From an uncultured Anaeromyxobacter sp. (GTDB lineage Bacteria; Myxococcota; Myxococcia; Myxococcales; Anaeromyxobacteraceae): 64,000 nt of DNA. Both the position numbers and the translations under genes were made by a program. Under the pieces are notes generated by a model, which was given only the letters and a program-made list of their open reading frames with translations, was not told the origin of the DNA and searched no databases. The stretch's first letter is position 1; every line of letters begins with the position of its first letter. This document shows positions 11,723-54,592 of the stretch, piece after piece. The stretch lies in NCBI GenBank assembly GCA_903855945.1, contig CAIOAK010000082.1:1-64000 (forward strand). The letters run 5' to 3'.

Positions 11723-14700
11723 TTCACGAGCTCCTCGTAGTAGCGCTTCACCTCGCCCTGGTAGGGCTCGGGCGTGCCCTGCTTCATGGCCTCGAGCAGG
11801 TCCCGGCGGAACTGCTCGCGCGCCCGGGAGGCCTCCGCCTGCGGGATCTCGACCTTCTCGCGGGAGGGATCCCCCTCGGCCCCGTCGCGGTGGGGCGAGC
11901 CGGAGGAGGCGTAGGGCATGGGGAAGCCGCCCCCTCCGCCTCCGCTCCCCTTCCCCATCTCGTCGAGACCCTTGCGGAAGCGCTCCAGCGCCGAGAGCGC
12001 CTCCCGCTGCTGGCCGGAGCCCCGCTGCGGGTTGCGCTGGCCGAGCGATCGGGACGCCTGCTCCATCTGCTCGCGCCCCTCGGCGAGGTCGCGCCCGGCC
12101 TGGGGCGGGAAGACCGGCGCCTCCTCCGAGAGCCGGTCGAGCCGCTGCTGCAGCTTCCCCGCCTTCTCCCCCAGCTCGTGCTGCTGCCGGGCCAGCCGGT
12201 CGAGCCGCTGCTGCTCCCCCTGCGGAAGCACGGTGTTCGCGTCGGGGAAGAGCTTCTCCAGCTCCGCGCGGGCCTGGGCCGCCGGCGGCAACGAGCGCCG
12301 CGCGTGGTCGGCCGACTCGCGAAGCTCGGCGGGGTCTCGCCGAGTCGACGGGGGCAGGCGCTCCGACATCGCCGCCTCGTCGTCGAGTCCGGCGGCGAGC
12401 CGCTGGAGCGGCGGCAGCACCCGGCGCGCGGCCTCCAGCGCAGCGTCCAGGTCCTTCGACGAGAGGGCCTTTCGCAGGTCGTCGAGCCGCTCCCGCGACT
12501 GGGCCAGGTCCTCCTCGGAGCGAGGGGCCGAGCCGGACCGCGCCTGGCGCAGCTCGGCCTCGGCCTTCCGGGCGAGCTCCTCCACCTTCCGGAGCGACGG
12601 CTCGGAGCGACGGATCCGTTCCCGGGTCGCGCTTCGGTAGGCGTCGCGCACCTTCTCGGTCTCGGCCGCGACCTGCTCCTGCTCCCGCTCCACCGCCGTG
12701 AGCTCGCTCCGGAGCTCGCGCAGCTGGCGGGAGAGCGCGGCGTTCCGCTCGTCGGGGACCCCGGCGGTGCGCTGGAGGGAGGAGAGCATCTCCTGCAGCG
12801 TGTTGCCCATGGCGTCGAGCTCCTTCAGCGCCGCGTCCACGTCGTCCTGGGCGAGCTTCTCCTCCACCCGCTTCATGCCGCCGGCGACGTCGTTCGCCTT
12901 CGCCATCTCGGCGAGCGCCTCCGCGTTCATGTGGGAGTCGGACACCCCGCGGGCCAGCTCGCCCATCTGGCGGAGCATGTCCTGCATCCGGGCGCGCAGC
13001 CGGGACACCTCGGAGAGCAGCTTCCGCTTCGCCGCATCGGAGGGGGCCTGCCGGTACTCCTCGAGGAGCGAGGCCAGCTCCCTTCGGCGCGAGGCCAGGT
13101 CCTTCGCCATCCGGACCAGGTCCTCGGCCCTGCGCTTGTCGAAGAGCATTTCCAGGTACAGGACGTCCTTCTCCAGTTCCCGGTCGAGCGCGTCGTCGAG
13201 GCCGTCCACCTGCCGGGCGGAGCCGGCCGCGGGGCCGCTGCCGTACTGGATCTGGCGGGCCAGCGTCTGGCGCGCCGAGGTGAGGAGCACCTCCCGCTCC
13301 CGGAGGCCGGTGGCGACGGTGGCGAGCGCCGCCGGAAGCTCCCGGGGCGCCCCCTTGTCCTTGCGCATCGTCTGGGCCGTTTCCCGGAGCCGCTCGTGGA
13401 GCTGCCGGGTCCGGCCGTCGAGGGCGAGCCCCTTCTGCACCCGGGCCGGCTCGGGCGCCTGCGCCCTCGGGAGCTGCTCCAGCCGGTCGCCCAGGATGGA
13501 GACCATCTCCTCCCAGTGGCGCCGGGCCTCCGCGAGGAGCCGCTGGTGGTGCTCGGCCTCGCTGTGGATCTTCACCGCCCGCGTCGCCGAGGCGGCGCGC
13601 TTCGGCCCGGAGACGGTGTCGTTGTCCTTCACCTCGAGCCAGTAGAGGAGCCGCTCCCCCTCGGCGAGGCGCATCGGAGCGAGCTCCAGGTCGAAGGACC
13701 CCGCGTCGCGCCGTGCCGGGGCGAGCGAGCGGAGCACGCGCCGCTCCTCCTCGCCGCCGGGTGGCTTCGTCACCAGCGTGAGCTCTTCCAGTCCGAAGTC
13801 GTCCGAGGCGGTCCATTCCACCGGGACGCGCGCGTCGGCCGCGACCTCCACCTCCCCGGCCGGTGCGGTGATGGCCACCTCGGGGAAGGCGTCGGGCTCG
13901 ATCGTCACCGGAATGGGAGGGCCGTTCACGATCACCTTTCCGCCGTCGGTGAACTGGAAGCGGTAGCTGCCGGTCCCGTCCACGAGGAAGGCGCCGGAGA
14001 GCTCGCGGCCGTTATTCACTGTGAGTGAAATAAGCCTCCGGGAATCCGGGGCGGCCCCCTCCACCGCGACCTGCGCGCCCCGGACCGGGCGGTCGGAACG
14101 GGTGGAGAGTTGGACCTCGGTGCCGAGCGGGGCCTGGATCGAGCCATCGCTCCCCGGGACCTTGCGCTCGGCCCGCCCGGTGTAGGCCGGGTAGCGGTAG
14201 GTGAGCTCGATGTCGCCGGTGATCGGATCGGCCCGCAGGGGCGCGGCGGCGACCCCCGCACCGGCGAGGAGGCGCGAGATGCCCCGTCCGAGGTCGGGGC
14301 CGAGCCAGAGCGCGGAGACGCCCCATGCCGCCAGGGCGGCGAGGAGTGCGCCCCCGGCGCGGCGGGCGGCCCGGTCGGGGATGGCGACCCGGAGATCGAC
14401 GTCCTGGGTCCGGGCTCCGGTCCGGAGCAGGTGCTCGTCGGCGAGGGCGGGAGAGAGGCCGCGGGCCTCGAGCCCGTCCCGGTCCGCGTGGAGCTCCACC
14501 GCCGTGAGGAGGGCGGAGCGGAGCGACGCGTCACCGCCGGCGACGGTCGTCGCGAGCTCCCGGGGGCCCCAGGCGGTGCGCCACAGCTTCCAGGCTCCCC
14601 AGCCGAAGGCGGCGGCGAGGGAGGCCAGCGCGAGCCCGAGCGAGCCCTGGCGGAGCCAACCCCCGGGGGATGCCTTGCCCCCTCCCAGAAAGAGGGCCCC

Positions 14701-14823
14701 GGCGAGGAGGAATGCGGCGGCCGCGGCCAGGCCGAAGCCCAGGGCCGTGGCCAGGACGACGGCTCGGCGCCGGCGGCGGGCCGCCGCGAGCAGGTCGGAG
14801 ATTTCGGAGTACGCCCCTTGCAC
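11719..14823 (-). CDS. large membrane-anchored coiled-coil protein (DUF4175-like)
   Basis: About 1034 residues. Near the N-terminus there are two hydrophobic segments (AVVLATALGFGLAAAAAFLL and a second after it) and a third near residue 160. Beta-rich periplasmic-type segments follow (EVAADARVPVEWTASDDFGL). From about residue 400 to the end it is charged, alpha-helical and coiled-coil, ending in a Gly-rich patch and a short acidic/basic tail. This layout matches DUF4175-type proteins found beside MoxR/BatA genes. Function is unknown; a structural or regulatory role in the Bat complex is inference. The start is uncertain: GTG at 14823 is used, a GTG at 14889 is also open, and neither has a good ribosome site. 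Confidence 0.78.
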   Translation of the reverse strand: MQGAYSEISDLLAAARRRRRAVVLATALGFGLAAAAAFLLAGALFLGGGKASPGGWLRQGSLGLALASLAAAFGWGAWKLWRTAWGPRELATTVAGGDASLRSALLTAVELHADRDGLEARGLSPALADEHLLRTGARTQDVDLRVAIPDRAARRAGGALLAALAAWGVSALWLGPDLGRGISRLLAGAGVAAAPLRADPITGDIELTYRYPAYTGRAERKVPGSDGSIQAPLGTEVQLSTRSDRPVRGAQVAVEGAAPDSRRLISLTVNNGRELSGAFLVDGTGSYRFQFTDGGKVIVNGPPIPVTIEPDAFPEVAITAPAGEVEVAADARVPVEWTASDDFGLEELTLVTKPPGGEEERRVLRSLAPARRDAGSFDLELAPMRLAEGERLLYWLEVKDNDTVSGPKRAASATRAVKIHSEAEHHQRLLAEARRHWEEMVSILGDRLEQLPRAQAPEPARVQKGLALDGRTRQLHERLRETAQTMRKDKGAPRELPAALATVATGLREREVLLTSARQTLARQIQYGSGPAAGSARQVDGLDDALDRELEKDVLYLEMLFDKRRAEDLVRMAKDLASRRRELASLLEEYRQAPSDAAKRKLLSEVSRLRARMQDMLRQMGELARGVSDSHMNAEALAEMAKANDVAGGMKRVEEKLAQDDVDAALKELDAMGNTLQEMLSSLQRTAGVPDERNAALSRQLRELRSELTAVEREQEQVAAETEKVRDAYRSATRERIRRSEPSLRKVEELARKAEAELRQARSGSAPRSEEDLAQSRERLDDLRKALSSKDLDAALEAARRVLPPLQRLAAGLDDEAAMSERLPPSTRRDPAELRESADHARRSLPPAAQARAELEKLFPDANTVLPQGEQQRLDRLARQQHELGEKAGKLQQRLDRLSEEAPVFPPQAGRDLAEGREQMEQASRSLGQRNPQRGSGQQREALSALERFRKGLDEMGKGSGGGGGGFPMPYASSGSPHRDGAEGDPSREKVEIPQAEASRAREQFRRDLLEAMKQGTPEPYQGEVKRYYEELVK
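14015..14029. repeat. dispersed palindrome, copy 1 (TTCACT-GTG-AGTGAA)
   Basis: Perfect 6-bp inverted repeat with a 3-base spacer, inside the DUF4175-like gene. On the coding strand it gives Ser-Leu-Thr-Val-Asn with codons TCA, ACA and AAT, all unusual in this GC-rich setting. It is one of seven copies in the window. Confidence 0.8.
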
Positions 14824-14824
14824 G

Positions 14825-14869
14825 TGTTCCCGGAACAGAGGAGACCGGATGAGAAATCCGCGAGATTTC
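14825..14869. promoter_or_regulatory. two palindromes in the divergent gap before the sigma-factor gene (operator candidates)
   Basis: A perfect 13-bp palindrome, TGTTCCCGGAACA, lies at 14825-14837, and an inverted repeat GAAATC-N5-GATTTC lies at 14853-14869. Both are in the 146 bases between the DUF4175-like gene and the ECF sigma gene, and a third GAAAT copy (minus strand) follows at about 14874. GGAAC is also the classic -35 core of ECF-sigma promoters, but I could not find a convincing -10 at the right distance. If the upstream GTG at 14889 is the true start of the leftward gene, these lie inside its coding region. Confidence 0.4.
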
Positions 14870-14969
14870 CCTAATTTCGACCGGCGCACAAGGACCCGGT
14901 ACCCCCCGACGGGGTGTGGTAGCTTTCCCGTGCCGAGGTGAATTTCCCCGCCGGCCGAACGTCCTCCCC

Positions 14970-16057: not shown

Positions 16058-16067
16058 CGGAGGAAGC

Positions 16068-16505
16068 ATGCGGAGCACCTGGACGGCGGCGTGGGCGGCG
16101 GTGGTCCTCCTCGCGTGCCTGCCCGCGCGGGCGGCCGACGCGCCGGTGCCGGTGCGCATCCGCGTCCTGCAGGGATTCCGCCAGGGAACGCCCGGCCTGC
16201 CGCCGGGGCTCGAGGATCTGAAGGCGCAGCTCTCGGCCACCGCCTACGTCCGGTGGGAGCAGGCCGAGGAGGTCAAGGTCTCCCTGGCGCCGGGCAAGTC
16301 CGTGGCGGTCTCCCTTCCGGGTGGGCGAGCGGTGTCGGTCCTGCTCGTCGAGTCGAAGAGCGGCGCCGCCACCTTCGAGGTGAGCGCCCCGGACTCGCGC
16401 ACCCGCTCTCGGGTCACGGTCCCACCGGGCAAGCGCATCGTGCAGCAGGTGAGCGCCGAGCAGGGCGGAAGCGCCTGGTTCGTGACGATCAAGGCGAGCG
16501 GGTAG
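16068..16505 (+). CDS. small secreted protein of unknown function
   Basis: 145 residues, not recognised. A cleavable signal peptide is likely (TAAWAAVVLLACLPARAADA, cut near residue 25). The rest is beta-rich with no cysteine beyond the signal peptide, and it reads like a small all-beta domain (VRIRVLQGF, SVAVSLPGG, SRVTVPPGK). The ATG at 16068 has a GGAGGAAG ribosome site. Because it is third in the sigma/anti-sigma transcript, it may be the stress-responsive output or a periplasmic modulator of the anti-sigma factor; that is inference. Confidence 0.8.
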   Translation: MRSTWTAAWAAVVLLACLPARAADAPVPVRIRVLQGFRQGTPGLPPGLEDLKAQLSATAYVRWEQAEEVKVSLAPGKSVAVSLPGGRAVSVLLVESKSGAATFEVSAPDSRTRSRVTVPPGKRIVQQVSAEQGGSAWFVTIKASG

Positions 16506-16537
16506 CGGGGGCGCGGGCCGTATTCTCGCTCGCCACG

Positions 16538-17947
16538 ATGCTTCCGGAACCGGCCCAGATCCTGGCGCGTGCGCGGAGCCTGTTGCGGGTCGCTCGCGTC
16601 GAACCCTTCGACGAGGCGACGGCGGAGGGGCGCTCCCAGGAACGCTACCGGCGGATCGTCCTCAGCACCGGGGCGAGCCTGGCGGGAACGGCCGTGACCA
16701 CGCTCGTCGGGCTGGCCATCGTCCCCCTCCTCGTGTCCCGCATGGGCAAGGACTTCTACGGTCTCTGGGCGACGGTCTTCTCCCTGACACCGTGGATTGC
16801 GCTGCTCGACATGGGGATGGTGGGTGGGCTCGTGGTCGCCATCGCGGAGGCCAACGGGCGGGACGACCGGGAGGGTGCGGCCGCGGGATTCTCCAGCGCC
16901 TTCTTCTCGCTCGCGCTGGCGGGGGTCCTGGCGTCCGTCGCGCTGGCCGCCGTGGTCGCCTTCGCCCCGTGGGAATCGGTCGTCCACCTCCCGGCCGGCC
17001 TCTCCCGGTCCTCGGTCACGGCGGGGGTCGCGCTGGTGGGGGTCGTGGCCGCCCTCTCCCTTCCGCTCGGGCTCGTGAACCAGGCGTGGACGGGGTACCA
17101 GAAGGCCTTCGTGGCCACCGCCTTCACGGCCGGGGGGAGCCTCCTGTCCCTCGCGCTGCTCGTCGCCGCGGTGCGGCTCGGTGGCTCTCCGTTCGCGGTG
17201 TTCGCCGCCGGCTCGCTGGCGGGCTTCGTGGCGGGCCTGGCCTCGCTCGCGTTCCTCTCCCGCGCCATGCCCTGGATGCGCCCGTCGCCCCGACGGGTCT
17301 CCCGCCCCGCCTTCCGCCGCCTGCTGGGGACCGCGACCCCGCTCTACCTGTTCCAAATCGGTTCACTATTAGTGAATCAGTCCCAGCGGCCCCTCCTCTC
17401 CGCCTCGGCCGGGCTCGGGGTCACGGCCGAGTACGACCTGCTGGCGCGGATCTACGTGCTCGCCATCACGCTCATCACCGTCTCCAGCGCCTCGTTCGCG
17501 CCCACCTTCCGGGAATCGCTGGAACGCGGGGACGGGGAGTGGATGCGGAAGACCTTCTGGCGGCTGGTGCGGCTCCGCATGGCGGCGGCGGCGGCGCTCT
17601 GCCTCGGGATCGTGCTCGGCGGGAACGCGGTGCTGCGGCTCTGGCTCGGGCGGCAGGACTTCCAGTTCGCGCTCCCGGTCTGGCTCACGCTCGCGGCGCT
17701 CATCCTGGCGGCGGTCTGGGCCAGCCCGTTCTTCGAGCTCCTGACCATCCTGGACCGGATCTGGCCCCAGGTGGCGGTGGTGCTGGTGCAGGGCCCTCTC
17801 ACCGTGGGGCTCACCTGGTATCTCGGCAGCAGGTACGGGGTGCTGGGAGCGCTCCTGGCGCTCGTCACTCCGACCGTCGTCGTGAGCGGCTGGGTCATCC
17901 CCGCGCTCGCCTGGAATACGGTGAGAACGCAGGAGGTGCGGCGATGA
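16538..17947 (+). CDS. polysaccharide flippase (MVF/Wzx-like), first paralogue
   Basis: 469 residues with about twelve to fourteen membrane segments after a 45-residue hydrophilic head. It belongs to the oligosaccharide flippase (polysaccharide biosynthesis) class that moves lipid-linked glycans across the inner membrane. The head contains EGRSQERYRRIVL, which is almost identical to EGRSDERYRRIVL in the flippase at 24026-25414; the two also share FQ(I/L)G and a following (L/T)VN motif. They are therefore paralogues. The ATG at 16538 is chosen because the homologous N-terminus begins there. The stop overlaps the next gene (ATGA). A dispersed palindrome lies in it at 17362, with consecutive CTA TTA codons. 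Confidence 0.88.
   Translation: MLPEPAQILARARSLLRVARVEPFDEATAEGRSQERYRRIVLSTGASLAGTAVTTLVGLAIVPLLVSRMGKDFYGLWATVFSLTPWIALLDMGMVGGLVVAIAEANGRDDREGAAAGFSSAFFSLALAGVLASVALAAVVAFAPWESVVHLPAGLSRSSVTAGVALVGVVAALSLPLGLVNQAWTGYQKAFVATAFTAGGSLLSLALLVAAVRLGGSPFAVFAAGSLAGFVAGLASLAFLSRAMPWMRPSPRRVSRPAFRRLLGTATPLYLFQIGSLLVNQSQRPLLSASAGLGVTAEYDLLARIYVLAITLITVSSASFAPTFRESLERGDGEWMRKTFWRLVRLRMAAAAALCLGIVLGGNAVLRLWLGRQDFQFALPVWLTLAALILAAVWASPFFELLTILDRIWPQVAVVLVQGPLTVGLTWYLGSRYGVLGALLALVTPTVVVSGWVIPALAWNTVRTQEVRR
17362..17376. repeat. dispersed palindrome, copy 2 (TTCACT-ATT-AGTGAA)
   Basis: Perfect 6-bp inverted repeat with a 3-base spacer inside the flippase gene. It encodes Ser-Leu-Leu-Val-Asn through TCA CTA TTA GTG AAT, including a TTA codon, which is among the rarest codons in such genomes. 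Confidence 0.8.
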
Positions 17948-18960
17948 TCCGATCCTGGGCTGCGTCCTTCCGGCGCTGGTTCCTGGGGGACCGGCTGTGG
18001 CTCGCGTCCCGTCCCGTGAGCCGCGAGCGGATGGCCTCCGACCCGGTCCGGCTGAGCCTGAAGAGCTTCGGGATCAAGCTGAACGAGGATCTCGCTCCCA
18101 GGCTCGCCGCGGTTGACGGCTCGGGCGAGCCTGCCCACCTGGGGCTCCCGAGCAAGGCCTGCACCCAGCAGGACGTCGAGAGCGCCTGGTTCGCCCACTG
18201 GTGCCGGGAACTCCGGATCGCTCCGTCCTACCATCGCAAGCTCTGGGAGTACGCCTTCCTCCTCCAGGTACTCCACGAGCGCGGCCTTCTGCGGGAGGGG
18301 CGGGAGGGGGTCGGCTTCGGGTGTGGCGAGGAGCCCATCGCCTCCTTCCTCGCCGCCCGGGGCGTCGCTGCGACCGTGACCGACCTGGACCCCTCGGTCG
18401 CCAAGGGGCGGGGGTGGATGGAGACGGGTCAGCACGCCTCCCGTCGCGACCTGGCGTTCCGTCCCGAGATCGTCTCGCGGGAGGCCTTCGACCGGCTGGT
18501 TCACTACGCACACGTCGACATGAACGACATCCCCAGCTCGCTCCACGGCCGCTTCGACTTCTGCTGGTCCCTCTGCGCCTTCGAGCACCTGGGATCGATC
18601 GAGGCCGGCCTGAGGTTCGTCGAGCGGTCGATGGATACGCTCCGTCCGGGCGGGTTGGCCGTCCACACGACGGAGTTCAACTTCCTCTGCCAGGAGGAGA
18701 CGATCACGACGGGCCCGACGGTCCTGTTCCTGGCCCGTCACTTCGCCGAGCTGAAGGAGCGGCTGGAGCGCTCCGGTCACCACGTCGGGATCCTGGACCT
18801 GGACGTCGGCAACGGGCTCGCCGACCGGTACATCGACCTCCCCCCCTACGACCGGGACGCGCTTCCCCAGGCCGGGTGGGGCTCCGGGCCCGTGCACCTG
18901 AAGCTCTCCCTCGAGGACTTCCCCACGACCTCCTTCGGCCTCGTCGTGCAGCGAGGCTGA
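17944..18960 (+). CDS. SAM-dependent methyltransferase of the glycan locus
   Basis: 338 residues. The Rossmann-type SAM-binding region starts near residue 120 (EGVGFGCGEEPIASFLAARG, then VTDLDPS). FDFCWSLCAFEHLGS and MDTLRPGGLAVHTTEF are the post-I motifs. The first 110 residues are hydrophilic and have no assigned domain. There is no signal peptide or membrane segment. It overlaps the flippase by four bases (ATGA), so the two are co-translated. The substrate is probably a sugar or a glycolipid head of this locus; that rests only on context. Confidence 0.85.
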   Translation: MIRSWAASFRRWFLGDRLWLASRPVSRERMASDPVRLSLKSFGIKLNEDLAPRLAAVDGSGEPAHLGLPSKACTQQDVESAWFAHWCRELRIAPSYHRKLWEYAFLLQVLHERGLLREGREGVGFGCGEEPIASFLAARGVAATVTDLDPSVAKGRGWMETGQHASRRDLAFRPEIVSREAFDRLVHYAHVDMNDIPSSLHGRFDFCWSLCAFEHLGSIEAGLRFVERSMDTLRPGGLAVHTTEFNFLCQEETITTGPTVLFLARHFAELKERLERSGHHVGILDLDVGNGLADRYIDLPPYDRDALPQAGWGSGPVHLKLSLEDFPTTSFGLVVQRG

Positions 18961-18972
18961 CGCCGTCCCCGC

Positions 18973-20178
18973 TCAGGGGAGCCCGAGTTCCCTGCGCCAC
19001 CCTCTCGCGGTCAGCCGCCAGCGCGTCCGCCACACCGCCGCCCCGAGCGAACGGCCCGGGAGCGAGCCCAGCCGCTCCTCCAGGGCCTCGAAGGTGGCGC
19101 CGGACAGCCCGCAGGCGCGTCGTGTGGCCATGTCGATCGCAGCCGCACGGCCGAGCGCGAGCCTTCGCGCCGGCGAGTCATGGAGCTCCCGCATGGCGCG
19201 AGCCGCAGCACCCACGTCCGGCTCCGCCCACACCTGCCCCGGACGGCCACGCTCCGCCACGTAGTGGGGGTGGGTGGGCTCGATGGCGACGAGGGAGTAA
19301 CCCACCGGCACCGAGTTCTCCGCGGTCATGAAGTCGGTGTTTCCGGACCAGCCGGTCGCCACGACCACCTTCCCGAGCCCCATCGCCTCCAGGAGGTGGA
19401 GCCCGAGCCCTTCCGACCGGTGGAGGGACACCAGGACGTCGCAGCTCGCATAGAGCCGCAGGACATCCGCGTAGGGAAGGCTCTCCGCGACGATGCGGAT
19501 GCGGGGATCGGCGGCAGCCCCGCGGAGCCGCTCGAGCTCGTCCGAGAACTCCCGCACCTCCGGCCAGGGTCTCGTCTTCACCACCAGTTGAACGTCCTCC
19601 CCACCCGGGAAGGCCTTCCGGAAGGCCTCGATGGCGCCCCAGGGGTTCTTGCGATCGACCCCGCTGCCGAGGTCGAAGGAGACGATGAAGAGGGTGGCCG
19701 TCGGGGAGAGCCCCCAGGCCTCCCGGCACGCGACCACGTCCCGAGGAAGGTCCACCGACTGCGGGTAGTGGAGGACGCGTTCGGCTCCGGCCACCCGGAT
19801 GCAGGCCTCCTCGATGAAGCGGGAGGGGGCGAGGATCACGTCCATGGCGCGCAGGATGGACTCCCAGCTGCGCGGGACGAGGGGAAGCTCCCAGAACGGG
19901 ACGCAGGCGTTCCGGGCTCCCCGAGCGACCTGCTCCTGCCACTGCGGGGCGTGCTGCGCGATCTCCAGCGGGTTGGCCTGGAAGAGCGCGACGCTCCGAC
20001 CCTCGGCGGCTGCGCGCGTCGCCGGAGCGCCATCCAGCCCGATCTCGCGAACCGGGCGATGCATGGCCCGGAGGATCCCCACGGTCTGCCGCGCCGCGAT
20101 GGCCAGCCCGAAGTCGCCACCGTGGTAGCCGACCACGTCGTAGGACCAGGGCGACCCCGCAGCGCTCTCTCCTCCCAT
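18973..20178 (-). CDS. glycosyltransferase family 4-like protein
   Basis: 401 residues with a GT-B fold. The C-terminal domain is clear: FDLGSGVDRKNPWGAIEAFR, then YASCDVLVSLHRSEGLGLHL and EAMGLGKVVVATGWSGNTDF, the GT1/GT4 donor-binding pattern with Glu in EGLGLHLLEAM. The N-terminal domain (VVGYHGGDFGLAIAARQTVG) is the acceptor half. It resembles GT4 enzymes in which a group of sugars is added to a glycan core. It faces the upstream methyltransferase tail to tail with 12 bases between them. ATG at 20178 is used; it is 47 bases from the divergent methyltransferase at 20226. Confidence 0.87.
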   Translation of the reverse strand: MGGESAAGSPWSYDVVGYHGGDFGLAIAARQTVGILRAMHRPVREIGLDGAPATRAAAEGRSVALFQANPLEIAQHAPQWQEQVARGARNACVPFWELPLVPRSWESILRAMDVILAPSRFIEEACIRVAGAERVLHYPQSVDLPRDVVACREAWGLSPTATLFIVSFDLGSGVDRKNPWGAIEAFRKAFPGGEDVQLVVKTRPWPEVREFSDELERLRGAAADPRIRIVAESLPYADVLRLYASCDVLVSLHRSEGLGLHLLEAMGLGKVVVATGWSGNTDFMTAENSVPVGYSLVAIEPTHPHYVAERGRPGQVWAEPDVGAAARAMRELHDSPARRLALGRAAAIDMATRRACGLSGATFEALEERLGSLPGRSLGAAVWRTRWRLTARGWRRELGLP

Positions 20179-20225
20179 GATGGTGCATGGTACACGGAAG
20201 GCACCGAGAGTAGACTTCGCCGCCC

Positions 20226-22875: not shown

Positions 22876-22876
22876 G

Positions 22877-23992: not shown

Positions 23993-24025
23993 GGGTATGG
24001 GTTCCCCTTCGAAAGCGCGGTGAGT

Positions 24026-25414: not shown

Positions 25415-25472
25415 GGGAACGGAACGAAGCTAGTTCATGGAGGGTGGGCCGTCGAGTAGGATGCCGAGCCTC

Positions 25473-26789: not shown

Positions 26790-26793
26790 GCGG

Positions 26794-29071: not shown

Positions 29072-30583
29072 ATGTCGTCCCTCACCGTCCTCGTGCCGGT
29101 CTACAACGAGCAGCACCTCGTGGCCGCCTCGCTGAGGCGACTCGCGGTGCTGGAGACGAGCCCCCACCTCGAGCGGGTCCAGGTGGTGGTGGTGGACGAC
29201 TCGTCCCGCGACGCGACGCCGACGGTGCTGGCCTCCTTCGCGGCGGAGCGGGGCATCGCGCTCGCCCCCCCTCCCCCGGCCGCACCGCGCGCCGGGACCG
29301 GGCCCGTACCCGCCGTGGAGCTGGGGCGCGGCCTCCACGGCAAGACCGAGTGGATCTTCCTCCGCCACGAGCGGAACGGCGGCAAGGGGACGGCCATCCA
29401 GACGGCGCTGGCCCGGGCCGACGGCGCCTACACCGTGATCCACGACGCCGATCTCGAGTACCACCCGGTCGACATCGTACGCATGGTGGACGTCTTCGTG
29501 ACCGAGCGGGCCGACGCGGTCTTCGGCTCCCGGTTCGCAGGGGGCGAGTCCCGCCGCGTCCTCTTCTTCCGCCACGAGCTCGGCAACAAGCTCCTGACCT
29601 TCCTCACCAACCTGGTCACGAACCTGAACCTCACCGACATGGAGACCTGCTACAAGGCCGTCCGCACCGACCTCCTGCGGTCGATCCCCATCGTCTCGAA
29701 CGACTTCCGGCTCGAGCCGGAGCTCACCATCAAGCTGGCGAAGCGGGAGGCGCGGGTCTTCGAGGTGCCCATCCGCTACTCGGGGCGCACCTACCAGGAG
29801 GGGAAGAAGATCGACTGGCGGGACGGCTTCCGCGCGCTGGGCGCCATCCTCAGGTTCACTCTCAGTGATGAGATCTACGTCCAGGACGAGCCGGGGCTCG
29901 CCATGACCCGGCGGCTCGCCTCGGCGGGGCGCTTCACCGGCTGGATGGCGGATCTCATCCGGCCGTTCCTGGGCTCGCGGCTGCTCGAGATCGGCTCGGG
30001 CACAGGGGCCATGACCCGGCGGCTCGTGCCCCGCGATCTCTACGTGGCGAGCGAGGTCGATCCGCTCTACCTGGAGACGCTGCGCAACCTGACCGCCGAC
30101 CGCCCCTACCTCGAGGCGCGCTACACCGACGTCACCGACGTCGCGTCCTACCCCCATTTGGAGGGCGGGTTCGATTCCGTCGTTTGCTTGAACGTGATCG
30201 AGCACGTGGACGACGACGTGGGCGCGCTCCAGAACGTCCGGTCGGCCCTCGCCCCCGGGGGGCGCGCCGTGGTGCTCGTCCCCTCCGGACCCTGGAACTT
30301 CGGCACGCTCGACGAGGCGCTCGGGCACCGGCGGCGATACACCGAGGCGACCCTCCGAGACCTGGCCTCGCGCGCGGGCCTGGCCGTCACCGAGGTGATC
30401 GCCTTCAACCGGCTCTCCTCCCTGCCCTGGTGGGTGAACGGGCGGCTCCTGCGCCGGAGCTCGGCGGGCCGGTTCCAGATCGGCCTCGTCGACTGGCTGA
30501 CGCCGATCTTCCGTCGCATCGATCGCTTCCTCCCCCTGCCCCCCCTGTCGCTCATCGCGGTGATGGAGCGGCGGCCGGACTAA
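29072..30583 (+). CDS. fusion of GT2 glycosyltransferase and SAM methyltransferase
   Basis: 503 residues. Residues 1 to about 270 are a GT2 (DPM1/GtrB-like) sugar transferase: LTVLVPVYNEQHLVAASLRR, VVVVDDSSRDAT, RNGGKGTAIQTALARADGAY, then HDADLEY with the metal-binding DxD, and METCYKAVRTD. Residues about 300-500 are a SAM methyltransferase: RLLEIGSGTGAMTRRLVPRD, FDSVVCLNVIEHVDDDVGAL, and APGGRAVVLVPSGPWNFGTL. No membrane segment is present. The ATG at 29072 has a GGAAGG ribosome site. A dispersed palindrome lies at 29855, and the stop TAA is the first edge of a 60-bp palindrome. Confidence 0.9.
   Translation: MSSLTVLVPVYNEQHLVAASLRRLAVLETSPHLERVQVVVVDDSSRDATPTVLASFAAERGIALAPPPPAAPRAGTGPVPAVELGRGLHGKTEWIFLRHERNGGKGTAIQTALARADGAYTVIHDADLEYHPVDIVRMVDVFVTERADAVFGSRFAGGESRRVLFFRHELGNKLLTFLTNLVTNLNLTDMETCYKAVRTDLLRSIPIVSNDFRLEPELTIKLAKREARVFEVPIRYSGRTYQEGKKIDWRDGFRALGAILRFTLSDEIYVQDEPGLAMTRRLASAGRFTGWMADLIRPFLGSRLLEIGSGTGAMTRRLVPRDLYVASEVDPLYLETLRNLTADRPYLEARYTDVTDVASYPHLEGGFDSVVCLNVIEHVDDDVGALQNVRSALAPGGRAVVLVPSGPWNFGTLDEALGHRRRYTEATLRDLASRAGLAVTEVIAFNRLSSLPWWVNGRLLRRSSAGRFQIGLVDWLTPIFRRIDRFLPLPPLSLIAVMERRPD
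29855..29869. repeat. dispersed palindrome, copy 3 (TTCACT-CTC-AGTGAT)
   Basis: Inverted repeat with one mismatch (last base T, not A), inside the GT2 domain. Unlike most copies, it is read here in another frame (Phe-Thr-Leu-Ser-Asp), so the DNA motif rather than one peptide seems to be what is kept. Confidence 0.65.
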
Positions 30584-30642: not shown

Positions 30643-30643
30643 A

Positions 30644-35603: not shown

Positions 35604-38059
<2,456 letters not shown>

Positions 38060-38120
38060 GGCGGGAACTCGATGCCTCCAATGTGCGGAAAGCCCCCGAA
38101 TACGCTCCGGGAGGCGCGGC

Positions 38121-38149: not shown

Positions 38150-38196
38150 GGCGTGGGTTGCCCGGCCCGCGCGGCGCGGTGTACGGTCGGCGCTCC

Positions 38197-39876
38197 GTGC
38201 TTCCCTCCCCCTTCGCCCCGTTTCGGATCCGCCCCGGCGACGCCGTCGCCGAGGCCGAGGCGCAGGCCGCCCGGACGCTCGGGGCCCCCTTCGTCGTGGA
38301 CCCCGCCGAGCCCACGGCCATGCGCTTCGCCCCGACGTCGCTGGCCCGGGTGGCGGCCGGCACCGCCGCCGATCACGAGGAGGCCTGCCGGGACGCCGAC
38401 GGTCGGGCTTCCGGGACCGCCGGCCACCAGCGGGCCTGCCCCCACTCCGCGGCGCACCGGGCCAGGCTGTTGGCCGACTGCCGCTCGGCCCTCGAAGCCG
38501 GTTACGCGGGCGTGCTCCTCGACCGTCCCGATCGGGTCCTCGGGCTCGGGCTCTTCGGCGCCGGCTTCTGCGAGGCCTGCCAGGCGGCCTTCCAGGCCGG
38601 TCTCCGCGAGGAGTACGGCGACCAGCTCGAGCCCTTCGACTTCCGGCGCATCGCCGCCGACGAGCTGGCCTCGGCCTCCGGCGCGGTGAGCTTCCGCAAG
38701 CTCCACTTCGGACGCGACTTCTGGAGGTTCCGGCTCGATTCGCTGGCCGGGGCGGTCTCGGCCTGCGTGCTCCCCATCCGGGACGCAGCCCGGGTGGCCC
38801 GACGCGATTTCGCTCTGGTGGCGCGCTTCGATCAGGTGGGACCTGCCCAGTTCCAGGCAGCCCGCATCCTCGACGGGGCGATCCTGCCGCTCAGCCCGCT
38901 CCCCCACCACACCGGCGCCGCCGAGGCGCGGCTTTGGCGCGCCGCCATCGGGCGCGGGGCGGTGGCCGCACAGCTGCCGCCCGGTGCCACGGCCGACCAG
39001 GTGGCCATCCATGCCGCCGCGCTCGCCGCGACCGGGGTGGCGGTGGGGCTCGAGGAAGGGGACCGGGCCTCTGCCACGGCAACCGTGCGCAGGCTCCTCG
39101 CCGACCATGCGGCACGGCGCGACGGGCGCCCCTTCGAGAATCCGGTGGTGGAGTTCCAGGTCTTCTACTCGCCCGAGGCCGACATGTGGTCGAGCGGCCT
39201 CCACCGGCTCGAGGCGGAGGAGGTCGGGGAGATCCTGACCCGACTTCACTTCCAGTGGGACGTGGCCACGGGCGGCAGCCCGATCCACCCCGGCGCCGTG
39301 CTCGTGCTCCCCCAGGCCCTCGGCCTCACGCCGGTCGAGGCGACGGCCGTGACCCGCTTCCTCGAGGGGGGCGGCAAGCTGCTCGTCCTGGGGGAGGCCC
39401 GCGTCGTGGCTCCCGGTGGGCGCTTCCTGCCCCCCTTCCTTCCCGAGGCCAAGGTGGGGCGGCTGAAGCCCACCCGGACCGGCGAGGGGGCGCTCGTCGT
39501 CGTTCCCCCGCTCGTCCCGGCTCCGTCGGGAGGAGGGCTCACCTCGGCGCCCGTGTCCGGGGCGCTCGAGGGTGGCCTCGCGGCGCTCGCCGGGCGCGGT
39601 CGGCGCGCGCTCCAGGTGGTGTCCCCCTCCCCGCTCGCGGTGTCGGCCTGGCGCCCGCCCCGCAGGCTCGACATCCACGTCGCCTCCCTGGCCGGCGGCC
39701 CGGTGCGCGGGGCGACCCTGGTCGTCGCGACCGAGCACTCGGGCTCGGCCCGGCGCGCCCGCTTCCGGGGCCCGGGCATCGACGAGAAGATCCCGCTCGT
39801 CCCCTCGGCAGGCGAGGTGGCGGCGGTCCTGCCCGAGTTCGTGGGATACGGCGTGCTCTCGCTCGTGCCCGGATAG
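38197..39876 (+). CDS. large protein of unknown function, possibly glycosidase-like
   Basis: 559 residues (GTG at 38197; the open frame extends 13 codons further to a TTG). No signal peptide or membrane segment is seen. FCEACQAAFQAGLREEYGDQ near residue 130 looks like the CxxC...F...LRxxYG region of some GH42-like TIM-barrel proteins. GAVLVLPQALGLTPVEATAV followed by FLEGGGKLLVLGEA near residue 400 looks like a beta-galactosidase-type middle domain with a GATase-like fold. I could not place catalytic glutamates with confidence. It stands alone between the divergent pyrophosphatase and the convergent larC (11 bases apart). Confidence 0.75.
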   Translation: MLPSPFAPFRIRPGDAVAEAEAQAARTLGAPFVVDPAEPTAMRFAPTSLARVAAGTAADHEEACRDADGRASGTAGHQRACPHSAAHRARLLADCRSALEAGYAGVLLDRPDRVLGLGLFGAGFCEACQAAFQAGLREEYGDQLEPFDFRRIAADELASASGAVSFRKLHFGRDFWRFRLDSLAGAVSACVLPIRDAARVARRDFALVARFDQVGPAQFQAARILDGAILPLSPLPHHTGAAEARLWRAAIGRGAVAAQLPPGATADQVAIHAAALAATGVAVGLEEGDRASATATVRRLLADHAARRDGRPFENPVVEFQVFYSPEADMWSSGLHRLEAEEVGEILTRLHFQWDVATGGSPIHPGAVLVLPQALGLTPVEATAVTRFLEGGGKLLVLGEARVVAPGGRFLPPFLPEAKVGRLKPTRTGEGALVVVPPLVPAPSGGGLTSAPVSGALEGGLAALAGRGRRALQVVSPSPLAVSAWRPPRRLDIHVASLAGGPVRGATLVVATEHSGSARRARFRGPGIDEKIPLVPSAGEVAAVLPEFVGYGVLSLVPG

Positions 39877-39887
39877 GGGGCGGGGCG

Positions 39888-41069: not shown

Positions 41070-41077
41070 GGCGCCTT

Positions 41078-41821: not shown

Positions 41822-42417
41822 CACGGGATCCCCAGCATCCGGGCGAGCCCGTCGAGCCCCGCCGGATCGGGGAGCAGGAGCAGGGTCCCGACGGTTTCCG
41901 GCCAGCCGAAGCGGACGCCCAGCGCCGGGCCGGCCGCACCGGGAGCCAGCGTGTCGAGGCAAGCGCGGACCCGGCCGCGGGTCAGGCGGGGAACTCCGTG
42001 CAGGAGCCGTCCCTCCACGGTGCGTGCCAGCGCCGACACGAAGGCCGACCCGGCGATGTTGCCCATCTCCACGAGCGCGCTCTCCCCCTCTACGTCCAGC
42101 GAGCCGGCCGCGGCGGCGGGCACGAGGCGCTGGGAGATCCGCTCGGCCTCCGCAGCGGGCATGAGGAGGAGGAGGCGCCCGCCGAGCGGTTCGGGGAGGT
42201 CCATCCCCACGGCGACCAGTTCCTGGTCCGGCCGGCCCGCCATCCGTGCCACCGCGGCGGCGTCCGGCTCGTCGAGGAGCCAGGCCTCCTCCACCTCGGT
42301 GGGGTGACCCAGGAAGCGGCCCACCGCCATCGCCGACTCGCGACCGCCCTCGGTGGCGAGACGCCGGAGCGCCTCCAGGAGATCGACCCGCCTCCGGCTC
42401 CGCCCCTCTCCGCTCAT
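41821..42417 (-). CDS. cheC: CheC-like chemotaxis phosphatase
   Basis: 198 residues. The CheC/CheX/FliY active motif is visible once, as [18 protein letters not shown] near residue 114 (E...N in the E-x-G-N-I pattern); the second symmetrical copy is not evident, as in the shorter CheC types. It probably dephosphorylates CheY-P. The ATG overlaps the cheA stop (ATGA) and the stop overlaps larB. Its loose match to standard CheC means the name is provisional. Confidence 0.75.
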
Positions 42418-44363
42418 GCCGCCACCAGCCGGTGGACGTCGAGGACGAAGACCGGGCGACCGTTCCCGAGCACGGTCACCGCCGAGAGGCCGGGGACGAG
42501 CGCCAGCGGACCGTGGAGCGGCTTCAGCACCGCGTCCTGCTGCCCGATGAGCTGGTCGACGGCGAGGCCGATCCGGCCGGATTCACTGTCAGTGACTACC
42601 ACCGACCGCCGCTCCCCGGCCGGTGCGCCCCTCGCGCCGATCAGCGACCCCAGGTCGAGCACCGGTACGGTGCCGTCCCCGAAGACGAACTGGGGCGTCC
42701 CGTCCACCCGCTCCAGCGTCTCCAGGCGCGCGTGGGCCGCACCGTGGACCTTGGAGACCGGGATGGCGAGGACCTCCGATCCCACCCGCACGAGCAGCAC
42801 CGGCTGCATCGCGACGGTGAGCGGAAGCCGCAGGGTGAAGCGCGTCCCCTCGCCGCGCCGGCTCTCGACGGAGAGCGTCCCGGAGAGGGACTCGACGCTC
42901 CTGCGCACCGCGTCCATGCCCACGCCGCGGCCGGAGACGTCGGTGACCTCCCGGGAGGTGGAGACCCCGGGGAGGCAGCAGAGCAGGAGCGCCTCGGCGT
43001 CCGTCAGCGACGCGGCCGCCTCGACGGCGATGGCGCCCCGGGCCACCGCCGCGCGTCGCAGCGCGCCGGCGTCCATCCCCTGGCCGTCGTCGGAGACCTC
43101 CAGGATCACCCGGTCCCGCTCGCGTCGCGCCGAGACCTCGATGCGGCCGGTGGGGCGCTTGCCGGCCGCGATCCGGTAGGCCGCGGTCTCGATCCCGTGG
43201 TCCACGGCATTCCGGAGCAGGTGCAGCACCGGGTCGCTGACCTCGTCGAGCAACGCCCGGTCGACCTCGATCTCGGAGCCGGTCATCACCACCTCGACCT
43301 GCTTCCCGGTCCGGCGCGCCAGGTCGCGGGCGGCGCGGGGGAGCCGGTCGGAGAGGGCGGTGAGCGGGGTCATGCGGGCCGCCATCACGCGCCCGTGCAG
43401 ATCCTTGGTGATGGCCTGCAGCCGGTCGACCCCCTCGTCGTGGGCGCGGCGAAGTCCCTCGGGCATGGCCTTCCCCAGCTCCCGCAGGCGGGAGGTGGCG
43501 AGGAGGAGCTCACCGGCCACGTCGAGGAATCCGTCGAGCATCTCCGCCCGCACCCGGACGGTCCGGACCGGCTCGGTCCCCGCGGCCGGCTCGGGTGCCG
43601 ACCGGAGAGGCGGCTCGGGAGGGGGCGCGGCGGCGGCCGCTCCACCCTCCTCGACCCGGACGCTCGCCAGCTCGGAGATCTGCGCGAGCGTCCGCTCCAC
43701 CTCGGCGATGGGCTCACCGGTGTCGACCTCCACGGAGAGCGTTCGGCCCGGCATCCGGCCGGCACGGAGCTCCTCCCCCGACGGGCGGGAGGAGGCGATG
43801 GTCCCGATCCCCTCGAGCCGCTTCACCACGAGGAATCCGCGGATGGACGGCGCCCGGCTCCCCTCTGCGACCGCCACCTCCACCCGGATGCGGCGCAGCC
43901 CGGGAGGCGGCTCCGGAGCGGCGGGGGGGGCGGGCTCGTCGATCGCGGGAGCCGGCCGAGTCGACACGGAGCTGGACTGAAGCGCACCGAGGCGCGCCAC
44001 GAGCTCCTCCGAGGCCGCCGGCCGCCCGCCCGCCCCGGCCTCCTGGATCATGCCTCCGAGCGCATCGGTCACGGAGAGGAGCAGGTCGATCCCTTCCGCG
44101 CCCGGAACCTCTCCTCGCGCCCGGAATGCCCCGAGCACGTCCTCGGCCCGGTGCGCCAGCAGCGCGATGCCGTCCTGCTGCATGGCCGCGGCCATCCCCT
44201 TGAGGCTGTGGGCGTGACGGAAGAGCTCGTCCGCGAAGCCGGCCGGCGCCTGCGAGACTCCGTCCGGCTGCTCCAGACGCACCAGGCCGGCGGAGAGCGC
44301 GTCGACGTGCTCCCGCGACTCGGAGACGTAGAGCGCCAGATATTTGGAGAGGTCCCAGTTCAC
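42414..44363 (-). CDS. cheA: chemotaxis histidine kinase CheA
   Basis: 649 residues with the full CheA order. HPt/P1: LFRHAHSLKGMAAAM with phospho-acceptor His52. P2: about 155-245, a CheY-docking fold (VEVAVAEGSRAPSIRGFLVV, then LSVEVDTGEPIAEVERTL) of the Thermotoga type. P3 dimerisation: about 280-340. P4 ATPase: N-box LLRNAVDHGIE, G-boxes DDGQGMD and GRGVGMDAVRRSVES. P5 CheW-like: the last 130 residues. The ATG is 15 bases after the cheY stop. A dispersed palindrome at 42582 lies in the P5 region. Output (motility, gene expression or other) is not known. Confidence 0.95.
   Translation of the reverse strand: MNWDLSKYLALYVSESREHVDALSAGLVRLEQPDGVSQAPAGFADELFRHAHSLKGMAAAMQQDGIALLAHRAEDVLGAFRARGEVPGAEGIDLLLSVTDALGGMIQEAGAGGRPAASEELVARLGALQSSSVSTRPAPAIDEPAPPAAPEPPPGLRRIRVEVAVAEGSRAPSIRGFLVVKRLEGIGTIASSRPSGEELRAGRMPGRTLSVEVDTGEPIAEVERTLAQISELASVRVEEGGAAAAAPPPEPPLRSAPEPAAGTEPVRTVRVRAEMLDGFLDVAGELLLATSRLRELGKAMPEGLRRAHDEGVDRLQAITKDLHGRVMAARMTPLTALSDRLPRAARDLARRTGKQVEVVMTGSEIEVDRALLDEVSDPVLHLLRNAVDHGIETAAYRIAAGKRPTGRIEVSARRERDRVILEVSDDGQGMDAGALRRAAVARGAIAVEAAASLTDAEALLLCCLPGVSTSREVTDVSGRGVGMDAVRRSVESLSGTLSVESRRGEGTRFTLRLPLTVAMQPVLLVRVGSEVLAIPVSKVHGAAHARLETLERVDGTPQFVFGDGTVPVLDLGSLIGARGAPAGERRSVVVTDSESGRIGLAVDQLIGQQDAVLKPLHGPLALVPGLSAVTVLGNGRPVFVLDVHRLVAA
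42582..42596. repeat. dispersed palindrome, copy 5 (TTCACT-GTC-AGTGAC)
   Basis: Eleven of twelve arm bases match; the last base is C. It lies within cheA and is read as Val-Thr-Asp-Ser-Glu through GTC ACT GAC AGT GAA, a different frame from copies 1, 2, 4 and 6. Confidence 0.7.
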
Positions 44364-44378
44364 CGAGGGTCGCCGTGC

Positions 44379-44744: not shown

Positions 44745-44782
44745 GGCTGGCTGGAAACCTACCATCCGTTCGGGTCGGAGTG

Positions 44783-45220: not shown

Positions 45221-45227
45221 CTGAGCA

Positions 45228-46625: not shown

Positions 46626-46662
46626 GGGTTCTCCTCGGGTGGAACGGATATGCGTGGGAATC

Positions 46663-47646
46663 CTACGCCCGGCCGCCCCGCCGTCCAAGAATGCGTGCGG
46701 ATCGGAGGTGATCGTGACCCGTCCGCCGGGGACGGAGGAGGCGCCCGTCCCGGAGGAGACGGATGCCCGGGGGGGGCACCAGGACCCCCACGACGGTGAG
46801 GGGCGTCCCGACCCGGCGGGCCGCCGCGCGGAGCCGGGCGAGCCGGGACGGCGCCACCGAGAGGAGGAGTTCGTAGTCCTCCCCGCCCGAAAGGGCCTCC
46901 GCCAGGGGGTCGCGTCTGCCCTGGGTCTGGGCCCGGTAGGCGGCGGAGAGCGGGAGGCAACCGGCGTCGACGTGCGCGCCGGTGCCGGAGGCCTCGCACA
47001 GGTGCCCCAGGTCCTGCAGCAGCCCGTCCGACAGGTCGATCGCGGCGCTCGCGATGCCCGCCGCCGCCCACCCCAGCTCGAGCCGGGGAACGGGGCGTCG
47101 CTGCCGCGCCCGCAGGGAGGCCGGCGCGCCGGGGCGGATCCCCAGGGCGGCGTCCCCGAGCGTGCCGCTCACGAGGAGCAGGTCGCCCGGCTGGCCACCG
47201 GTGCGGAGGAGCGCCCGCCCGCGCCGTACCGCGCCGAGCAGCGTCACCGCGATGGAGAGCTCGGACGCGGCGGTCACGTTGCCCCCCACCACCGAGACGC
47301 CGTGACGCTCCGCGCAGGAGGCGATCCCGCGACCGATCCGGGCCAGCCAGCCCGGACGGGCGGAGGGCGGCGTGGCGAGCGCCACGAGCGCCCAGAGCGG
47401 ACGCGCCCCCATCGCGGCGAGGTCGGAAATATTCACTGCGAGTGACTTCCAGCCGATCTCCTCGGGCGTGAAGCTCCGCGTGAAGTGGACCCCCTCGACC
47501 AGGGCGTCCACCGTGGCCAGGAGGTCGTGCCCCGCCGGGGGCCGGAGCACCGCGGCGTCGTCCCCGATCCCCACCTCCACCCCTTCTCCGGGGGTGAACG
47601 GGCGGGTGAAGCGCTCGATGAGCTCGAACTCTCCGGGGCGGGTCAC
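46663..47646 (-). CDS. thiL: thiamine-monophosphate kinase
   Basis: ATP-dependent phosphorylation of thiamine phosphate to thiamine pyrophosphate, cytosolic. 327 residues, normal length. [20 protein letters not shown] and [20 protein letters not shown] carry the metal-binding acidic residues, [20 protein letters not shown] is the nucleotide motif, and [20 protein letters not shown] and [13 protein letters not shown] are the C-terminal ThiL blocks. It sits between the chemosensory set and the PocR kinase, with no evident link to them. A dispersed palindrome at 47432 is read as SLAVN, right at the LAVNISDL motif. Confidence 0.94.
47432..47446. repeat. dispersed palindrome, copy 6 (TTCACT-GCG-AGTGAC)
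   Basis: Eleven of twelve arm bases match. It lies within thiL, coding Ser-Leu-Ala-Val-Asn through TCA CTC GCA GTG AAT. The following ATT (Ile) and AAT are again unusual codons here. Confidence 0.7.
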
Positions 47647-47652
47647 CGCCGG

Positions 47653-49694: not shown

Positions 49695-49705
49695 CGGAGA
49701 GGAGG

Positions 49706-52632: not shown

Positions 52633-52642
52633 GCGGCGCTCC

Positions 52643-54592
52643 CTACGGTGCAGGGGCCGGGACGCCGGACAGCTCTTCCGGGCGCATCTCCCGGATGGCG
52701 CCCTTGTCCACGGTCAGGAAGAAGAGGGGCCGGACCGGCTCCCCCTGTGCGTCGAAGGTCACGTCCCCGGTGGCACCGGGGAATGGCCGCTGGTTCGCGA
52801 GCGCGTCTCGCATCTCCTTGCGCCCCGACGCGCCGCGGGCCATGGCCGCGGCGATCATCCCGGCGGCGTCGTACGCCGAGGCCTCCAGGATGGAGGGGGT
52901 GCGGGCCTGCACCTTCTGGAAGGCCTCCACGAAGCGCTTCGTGTCGGCGCGCTCCGACCCGGCGAAGAAGCCGTCGACGAACACGGCGCACTCCACGTAC
53001 CGGCCGGCCTTCTCGACCAGGGTCGGGTCGTCCCACCCATTCGCTCCGAGCAGCAGCACCGGCTTCACCGTCCAGTGGCTCACCTTCTGGATCCGCGCCA
53101 CCTCCTCGGGATCGCAGGCGGTGACCACGTCCTCGGTGGCGAGCGCCGGCGCGAGCAGCGCGACCGAGCGGGCGAAGTCGGGGACGAAGATCACGTCGAA
53201 GTCCACGATGGGTGCGAGGTCCTTGCGCGCCTTCTCGAGCGCCCGGGAGCGCTTGTAGGGGTCCTGGACGTCCCGGTGGATGGCCCGCTCCGCCTCCCGC
53301 CAGTCGGACCGCTTCTCGATCTGGGCCTGGGAGCGGCGCACCAGCTCCTTCACCATAGGTGAAAAATTGCTCCGGTCGGCCTCGTAGTAGACGGCTCGCG
53401 TCACCGCCCCGCCCCGGGCCTCGACGGCGGCCCCGAACGCCGTCCGCAGCTCGCTCCCGTAGGGGATCTCCGGGTACAGGACCAACGCCCGGCGCAGCCC
53501 GCGGCGGGTCACGGCCAGGTCGGCGAGCGCCTGGGCCTGGGCGTGCGCGGTGAGCATGAGCCGGAAGACGTACGGGCGCCCGCCGGTGACGCCGTCCACC
53601 TTGGAGAGGGAGATGAGCGGCACCCCCTCCTGCTGGGCGGCCGCGGCCGCGCGCGGGGCCTCGGCGTTGGTGACGCCGCCGATGATGGCCACGGCGCCCT
53701 CCGCGGCGAGGGATGCCACCGCCTCGGCGGCTCCGTCCGGCTCGCCGCGCGTGTCGCGGGAGATCACCCGGATCGAGCCACCCTCGGGCACGGCCAGCGT
53801 GACGCCCTGGAGGATGGCCTCCCCCCAGCCCTGGAACTTGCCCGACAGCGGCACGGCCACGCCGATCACGCCGGACGCGGCCTGGGTTCGCGGGACGGCC
53901 CGGGCGGCCAGCGCCGCGCCGATCGCGCCGTCCTTCGGAAGTTCCGCTGCGAGCGCCTCCACCTCCTGCGGGGAGAGACGGGTGTGGACGATGGCGAGCA
54001 CCTCGGCCGTCTGGCGCGATCGCTCGGCGTCGGGGAGGTAGCGGATGGCGAGCGCCCGCCAGCGCGCCGCGAGCGGCCAGTTGCCCCCCACCTGCGCCGC
54101 GTCGGCGATGCGGAGCGCCAGGTTTCCCTTGCGGGCGTCGGGCGCCTGGTCCCAGGCCGACTGGAGCGTCGGCAGCCCCTGCTTCGGTCGGCCCGCCTCC
54201 ACCTCGGCGAGGCCGTAGCGGACCCGCGCATCGTCGGCCCGGGGGGAGAGCGGATACCGGGAGAGGAGCTCGGCCCAGTCGGCCGCGGCCCGCGCGGGCT
54301 GGCGCGCGCGCATCCAGGCCCGGGCCGCCTCGTCGAGCGCCTCGGCCGCCTCGGCCGACGCGGGCCAGGTGCGAGCCAGCTTCTCGAACGCCTCGGCGCT
54401 CTTCCCCGGCGGCGTCGAGGCGGGCGCGCCTCGCAGCTTCGACAGCTCCGCGGCCGCCGCGGCCGAGGGCTGGGTGGCCACCGGGGGCGGACGGACGGAC
54501 GGGGGGGCGACGGGCGGCGGCGAGGCGGGCTTCGTGGTCGCGCACGCGACGGCGAGGAGCGCGAGGAGCGCGACCGGAAGGGGCAGGCGCAT
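52643..54592 (-). CDS. lipoprotein with TPR and periplasmic-binding domain (LppC/LpoA-like)
   Basis: 649 residues. Lipobox VACA with Cys17, a Pro-rich linker to about 45, TPR-like repeats to about 230, then a Peripla_BP_6-type domain from VIGVAVPLSGKFQGWGEAIL to the end. The order resembles LpoA, the outer-membrane activator of PBP1A in Gammaproteobacteria, and also some ABC-type binding proteins, so function could be peptidoglycan synthesis control or ligand binding. It is followed by the M50 gene with 10 bases between. A dispersed palindrome is at 53349. Confidence 0.87.
   Translation of the reverse strand: MRLPLPVALLALLAVACATTKPASPPPVAPPSVRPPPVATQPSAAAAAELSKLRGAPASTPPGKSAEAFEKLARTWPASAEAAEALDEAARAWMRARQPARAAADWAELLSRYPLSPRADDARVRYGLAEVEAGRPKQGLPTLQSAWDQAPDARKGNLALRIADAAQVGGNWPLAARWRALAIRYLPDAERSRQTAEVLAIVHTRLSPQEVEALAAELPKDGAIGAALAARAVPRTQAASGVIGVAVPLSGKFQGWGEAILQGVTLAVPEGGSIRVISRDTRGEPDGAAEAVASLAAEGAVAIIGGVTNAEAPRAAAAAQQEGVPLISLSKVDGVTGGRPYVFRLMLTAHAQAQALADLAVTRRGLRRALVLYPEIPYGSELRTAFGAAVEARGGAVTRAVYYEADRSNFSPMVKELVRRSQAQIEKRSDWREAERAIHRDVQDPYKRSRALEKARKDLAPIVDFDVIFVPDFARSVALLAPALATEDVVTACDPEEVARIQKVSHWTVKPVLLLGANGWDDPTLVEKAGRYVECAVFVDGFFAGSERADTKRFVEAFQKVQARTPSILEASAYDAAGMIAAAMARGASGRKEMRDALANQRPFPGATGDVTFDAQGEPVRPLFFLTVDKGAIREMRPEELSGVPAPAP
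53349..53363. repeat. dispersed palindrome, copy 7 (TTCACC-ATA-GGTGAA)
   Basis: A perfect 6-bp inverted repeat with the inner pair changed from T:A to C:G, followed by an A-run. It is in the TPR/binding lipoprotein gene and is read as Ser-Pro-Met-Val-Lys with TCA and CCT codons. Confidence 0.65.

Follow-up and report, generated by a model that had tools for sequence, protein, structure and literature searches.

The window analyzed here is a stretch of 64,000 nucleotides (positions 1–64,000 of contig CAIOAK010000082.1, contig 82) from the genome of an uncultured Anaeromyxobacter sp., which was placed in the family Anaeromyxobacteraceae, in a genus (g1) distinct from Anaeromyxobacter itself. 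A preliminary description of the window had pointed out seven inverted repeats of the form TTCACT-N3-AGTGAA lying in unrelated genes and had suggested that they constitute a spaced DNA address. All seven were found at the coordinates given there, the division into three perfect palindromes and four copies with one mismatch each proved correct, and the host genes matched their description (Table 1). An eighth, weaker site missing from the original list was also recognized. Matches with at most one mismatch occurred six times in the window as opposed to 0.01 times in dinucleotide shuffles.

Table 1. Copies of the spaced palindrome in the window, their host genes and their counterparts in three congeneric genomes (G001, G002, G003)
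Sequence	Coordinates	Form	Host gene (coordinates, strand, product)	Counterpart in congeners
TTCACTGTGAGTGAA	14015..14029	exact; perfect palindrome	11719-14823, -, DUF4175 membrane protein	none in G001/G002/G003 orthologues
TTCACTATTAGTGAA	17362..17376	exact; perfect palindrome	16583-17947, +, probable flippase (product without Pfam match)	TTCACTATTGGTGAA in G001
TTCACTCTCAGTGAT	29855..29869	one outer mismatch	29072-30583, +, GT2-methyltransferase	degenerate form
TTCACTGTACGTGAA	31327..31341	full TTCAC-N5-GTGAA; one palindrome mismatch	30644-31570, +, NTP_transf_5	TTCACTACAGGTGAA in G003
TTCACTTCCAGTGGG	39245..39259	weaker site	38179-39876, +	
TTCACTGTCAGTGAC	42582..42596	one outer mismatch	42414-44363, -, cheA	degenerate form
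TTCACTGCGAGTGAC	47432..47446	one outer mismatch	46663-47646, -, thiL-like (AIRS)	TTCACCGCGAGTGAC in G001
TTCACCATAGGTGAA	53349..53363	perfect palindrome, C/G at pair 6 (TTCACC ATA GGTGAA)	52643-54592, -, lipoprotein (LppC/Peripla_BP)	

The search was extended to the complete set of 213 contigs (4.07 Mb, 99.1% complete), where TTCAC-N5-GTGAA was present in 158 copies, while the reversed pattern was absent and the identical halves separated by N8, a spacer that keeps the codon phase, occurred once. Detailed counts were made in a sample of 787 kb, in which densities run high (52 exact sites vs. ~30 expected from the genome count) because many of its contigs were chosen for exact sites. Half-site counts predicted 0.98 exact copies in this sample, and for the 12-base form 0.007 copies were expected and 23 observed; in a 456-kb sample the motif ranked at the top of all gapped 10-mers, palindromic or otherwise. 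Comparison with codon-shuffled controls, which had been proposed in the preliminary description as a check on the sites, gave counts far above the control: sampled genes called by a simple codon-score predictor contained 40 exact copies, while 100 within-gene synonymous-codon shuffles gave a mean of 0.18 and a maximum of 2, which strongly supports the claim that the sites are beyond chance. When tolerated variants were included, 101 sites were counted in the whole sample as opposed to 3.8 in codon-shuffled genes. Chance and codon bias as the source of the motif were thus ruled out for this genome by the shuffle and N8-spacer controls. Contig C15, the longest of the sample (252 kb), contained 10 exact sites, which equals the genome average, and 38 sites with tolerated variants, corresponding to one site per 6.6 kb or ~600 per genome.

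The anatomy of the motif is that of a strictly spaced dyad. The spacer scan gave 52 matches at a spacer of 5 bp, 0–6 at the others and none at spacer 0. The CAC and GTG cores are nearly invariant, the outer TT/AA positions are variable, positions −1 to −3 are A/T-rich and 67% of the half-sites have T at position 6, so the own-genome form can be written as wTTCACT-N3-AGTGAAw. Variation in one half is independent of that in the other, both at position 6 (27 pairs with the same letter, 25.4 expected) and in the flanks, and weak halves standing opposite a perfect half are commonly non-complementary to it. An RNA or single-stranded DNA hairpin was therefore ruled out, since the arms do not covary; the independent halves and non-complementary partners fit two identical protein subunits bound to duplex DNA. 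Among the exact motifs within genes, codon offset 2 was found 28 times and offset 0 11 times, while offset 1, which would bring TGA in frame, was never used. These data strongly support the proposed spaced address, and TTCAC-N5-GTGAA is a genome-wide DNA-level address of dimer type.

The sites are not confined to coding sequences. The initial impression that they never fall in the gaps was a small-sample effect: 12–13 of the 52 exact sites are located outside predicted genes or at their margins (about nine of them look truly intergenic on inspection), although only ~7.5–8% of the sampled DNA is non-coding; if anything, non-coding DNA is favoured over coding DNA. Within genes, which are functionally unrelated, the sites are dispersed over the gene bodies without a preferred position, and some are near gene starts. 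The lowest quarter of the sampled genes by GC content at third codon positions (GC3) contained 12 sites instead of the ~22 expected, about half the density. This scarcity of an AT-rich motif in low-GC3 genes is the reverse of a composition effect, and the same direction was seen in G003.

Twenty site-by-genome comparisons with the three congeners, whose flanking sequences are ~78–84% identical, revealed no gap at any site of the own genome. An inserted element such as a repetitive extragenic palindrome or a miniature inverted-repeat transposable element was ruled out by this lack of indels relative to the orthologues and by the unrelated flanks of the sites. The gain of the 14,015 site took place through clustered, indel-free substitutions, by which, according to a by-eye translation, ~6 residues of an 11-residue stretch differ, mostly conservatively. 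In the sites shared with G003 the arms were kept and the spacer was altered (e.g., TTCACTATTAGTGAA and TTCACTTCTCGTGAA); as a shared site was defined by its arms, only the spacer divergence is informative here. The pyruvate carboxylase gene gives the clearest view of how a site is written. Anaeromyxobacter spp. have TAC GAC TCG CTC CTC GTG AAG or close variants at the relevant position, G003 has TAC GAT TCA CTT CTC GTG AAG and the own genome TAC GAT TCA CTA TTA GTG AAA, while the peptide YDSLLVK is identical throughout, that is, the site was created by synonymous changes alone. Since TTA, CTA, TCA and AAA make up only 0.1–1.6% of their codon sets, this rewriting with rare codons indicates that maintenance of the sites, or a drive favouring them, operates on the DNA itself; they override codon bias and sometimes the amino acid sequence as well. 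In the flippase region of the window, positions 16,505–19,400 are 93% identical to G001 (the preceding sequence ~81%) and the alignments of G003 and G002 end at ~16.5 kb; the segment thus has the appearance of a polysaccharide cluster that was exchanged recently.

The distribution of the motif among the relatives is patchy. The copy numbers with N5 and N8 spacers were 158/1, 72/0, 39/2 and 15/0 in the own genus, 145/2 (G024), 52/2 (G051), 45/1 (G045), 26/0 (G059) and 21/0 (G028) in other families, and 17/2 and 12/2 in G027 and G047, respectively. The sister of G045 has 6 copies, Anaeromyxobacter genomes have 0–3, the genomes of family f4 (mostly 9–13 Mb) are near background at both spacers, and no clear enrichment was detected outside the order in the genomes of the phylum examined. 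Six of the seven matches in G037 are the same word, TTCACAGAGTGTGAA, on either strand, so this count probably reflects a copied repeat rather than a dispersed address. Nearly all matches to the ideal 14-base form listed from viral contigs were single, and no array was among them. Recognition differs between lineages: G024 is almost devoid of one-mismatch sites, in which the own genome and G003 are rich, their deviations falling mostly on the two outer positions, and the T preference at position 6 is a property of the own genome that was not seen in G003 or G024. Some other spaced or repeated words were encountered in these genomes. In G024 another spaced palindrome, TAACC-N4-GGTTA, was counted 6 times with 0.003 expected (L112, L116, L121, L122, L126, L128 and others) and may represent a regulator operator family; GGATCC is over-represented there as well (6 vs. 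0.09). The Anaeromyxobacter genome G006 contains a CATGCC-N4-GGCATG repeat with fixed flanks (L129:3263, L135:8021, L135:16750 and L144:4330); ACCATCA-N3-TGATGGT, considered as an analogous palindrome in the same genome, turned out to be a false signal from tandem 276-bp coding repeats (L148:12136-14900).

We infer that a protein reads the sites, and the explanation we favour, to which we give not quite an even chance, is that TTCAC-N5-GTGAA serves as a chromosome-wide binding address of a putative homodimeric protein acting in nucleoid or chromosome organization or in segregation. The symmetric dimer would bind double-stranded DNA with each subunit on one TTCAC half, and the ~600 sites within and between genes would mark the chromosome much like the sites of SegB, Noc, SlmA or MatP, though more densely, instead of acting as promoter operators; they arise by point substitutions and are kept at the DNA level. 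The strict spacing and CAC core, the tolerant outer bases and the A/T flanks support an address, as do the excess over the spacer and codon-shuffle controls, the independent halves, the synonymous rewriting in pyruvate carboxylase and the higher density in typical high-GC3 genes, and chromosome organization or segregation appears to be the most economical role because the sites disregard gene boundaries. A precedent is archaeal SegB, for which 46 palindromic motif sites are known and 83.7% of the enriched sites are intragenic (PMC12284271). Several observations weigh against this function. About 600 sites are many for an organizing protein. The sites are spaced nearly randomly along the contigs, apart from a weak shortage of gaps below 2–3 kb, and the 21 exact sites of the closed genome G028 show no significant clustering (Rayleigh p ~0.4). 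The patchiness within genera, where congeners of G051 and G059 have 0–5 copies, would be unexpected of a core function of the chromosome. The retention of sites at corresponding positions, raised earlier as a point to be looked at in relatives, was mixed: 3 of 9 sites are common to G003 and 2 of 7 to G001 but 0 of 4 to G002, which means rapid turnover between congeners. The high number, fast turnover and patchiness are at least equally compatible with a drive, for example an uptake signal. Finally, no reader protein was found among the candidates tested, that is, ParB_N paralogues and PF01420 proteins. G003, G024, G028, G045 and G051 have one ParB_N match each and extra copies occur mostly in non-carriers; as carriers have no extra ParB-like gene, a ParB/Noc paralogue is not supported as the reader. 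The resemblance to parS noted earlier therefore holds for the common half-site TTCAC/GTGAA and for nothing more.

Among the rival explanations, a DNA uptake signal seems rather unlikely; it would mean that competent cells favour DNA containing the motif and recombination spreads the copies by point changes, as in the case of DNA uptake sequences (DUS) and uptake signal sequences (USS). DUS occur in dialects and in thousands of copies (PMC3630211). The density of the sites, their gain by substitution, their location in genes with a preference for typical, native-like ones, the lineage dialects, and the patchy loss and gain would all be expected from such a process, and a drive through uptake would explain how many individually weak sites can override codon choice and protein sequence. 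Nevertheless, DUS and USS lack symmetry and have pilins as their readers, while the present word is a symmetric dyad with equivalent, independent halves. We regard as quite unlikely a palindrome similar to the highly iterated palindrome HIP1, recognized by an orphan methyltransferase and accumulating because mismatch repair is biased by methylation or because methylation itself is selected. HIP1, too, is a palindrome repeated many times and distributed patchily; most changes in its one-off forms affect the outer positions, and its frequency goes along with methyltransferases, although its role is debated (PMC4390886). The one-off sites of the own genome and G003 likewise deviate mostly at the two outer positions, the over-representation exceeds codon and composition controls, and a symmetric bipartite N5 site could be read by a two-subunit Type I-like enzyme. 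On the other hand, ten fixed bases are long for a methyltransferase, and PF01420 (Type I specificity) was found in some non-carriers but not in five of the nine carriers tested, including G003, G045 and G051 (two of the five assemblies are incomplete; other methyltransferase classes were not searched). PF01420 thus does not track the motif, and a Type I-like methyltransferase is not supported as the reader.

A global transcription regulator binding within genes is distinctly improbable. The anatomy fits common helix-turn-helix dimers and some sites are near gene starts, but most are in gene bodies without a preferred position and the genes have unrelated functions. In the sample, regulator genes were seen neither beside the intergenic sites nor with the motif at their starts, and no conserved promoter site hinting at autoregulation was evident in Anaeromyxobacter. 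The probability that the motif is due to chance, to base composition or codon usage, or to copies of a mobile repeat is negligible in view of the codon-shuffle, spacer and reversed-pattern controls. An intergenic repeat of ~250 bp in G003 does carry the motif in some copies; as other copies have TTCGCGGCCCTGGTG at its place, it originated by substitution there too, and a mobile repeat is at odds with the unrelated flanks and indel-free sites of the own genome. The members of this family (L107:1193-1512, also in L090, L098, L101 and L103) have TTCACCTAGGGTGAA-like motifs or TTCGCGGCCCTGGTG at that position, and only short remnants are present in the own genome (L069:12500, L060 and L040).

Iterated DNA addresses have been described in only a few cases, and the role of some, such as HIP1, is still debated. 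The present motif is sharply defined, its specificity could be quantified, it overrides codon choice and it varies between close relatives; the genus g18, with carriers (52 and 26 sites) and non-carriers (0–5), offers a natural experiment for finding the reader. A literature search on the motif letters gave no match. We tentatively propose, with more reserve than confidence, that the motif represents a class of self-chromosome address of the Myxococcales that has not been described before; this class would serve chromosome organization or self-DNA recognition via a putative DNA-binding protein and would be characterized by a spaced dimer palindrome, hundreds of intragenic copies, lineage dialects, and gain and loss within genera.

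Compared with known systems, the parS site of ParB (TGTTTCACGTGAAACA) has the same half-site, but its halves abut (TTTCACGTGAAA), whereas here they are 5 bp apart, in hundreds of sites and without an extra ParB-like gene. HIP1 (GCGATCGC) and the alternate HIPs of cyanobacteria are similarly over-represented palindromes in genes with a patchy distribution and the greatest tolerance at the outer positions. HIP1, however, is an 8-bp uninterrupted GC-rich word occurring about once per kb with known links to methyltransferases, while the present motif is a 15-bp interrupted, AT-rich word in a 72% GC genome, found about once per 6.6 kb, for which the comparison of Type I specificity subunits gave no methyltransferase link. 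The DUS and USS of Neisseriaceae and Pasteurellaceae share the hundreds to thousands of copies, the location mostly in genes and the dialects, and the flanks of USS are A/T-rich as are those of the present motif, but these words are asymmetric in contrast to a dyad with independent halves. The sites of Noc (Noc-binding sites, NBS), SlmA (SlmA-binding sites, SBS) and MatP (matS) are dispersed, dimer-read sites for division and chromosome layout. They number dozens and have regional bias, while the sites described here have a different sequence, number hundreds and have no established regional bias. The SegB sites of Sulfolobales (TCTAGA-S-TCTAGA) differ in sequence and in being 46 sites clustered near segAB, as opposed to ~600 with no cluster established, yet they too form a palindromic, dispersed and mainly intragenic address, in their case of a chromosome organizing and segregation protein (PMC12284271).

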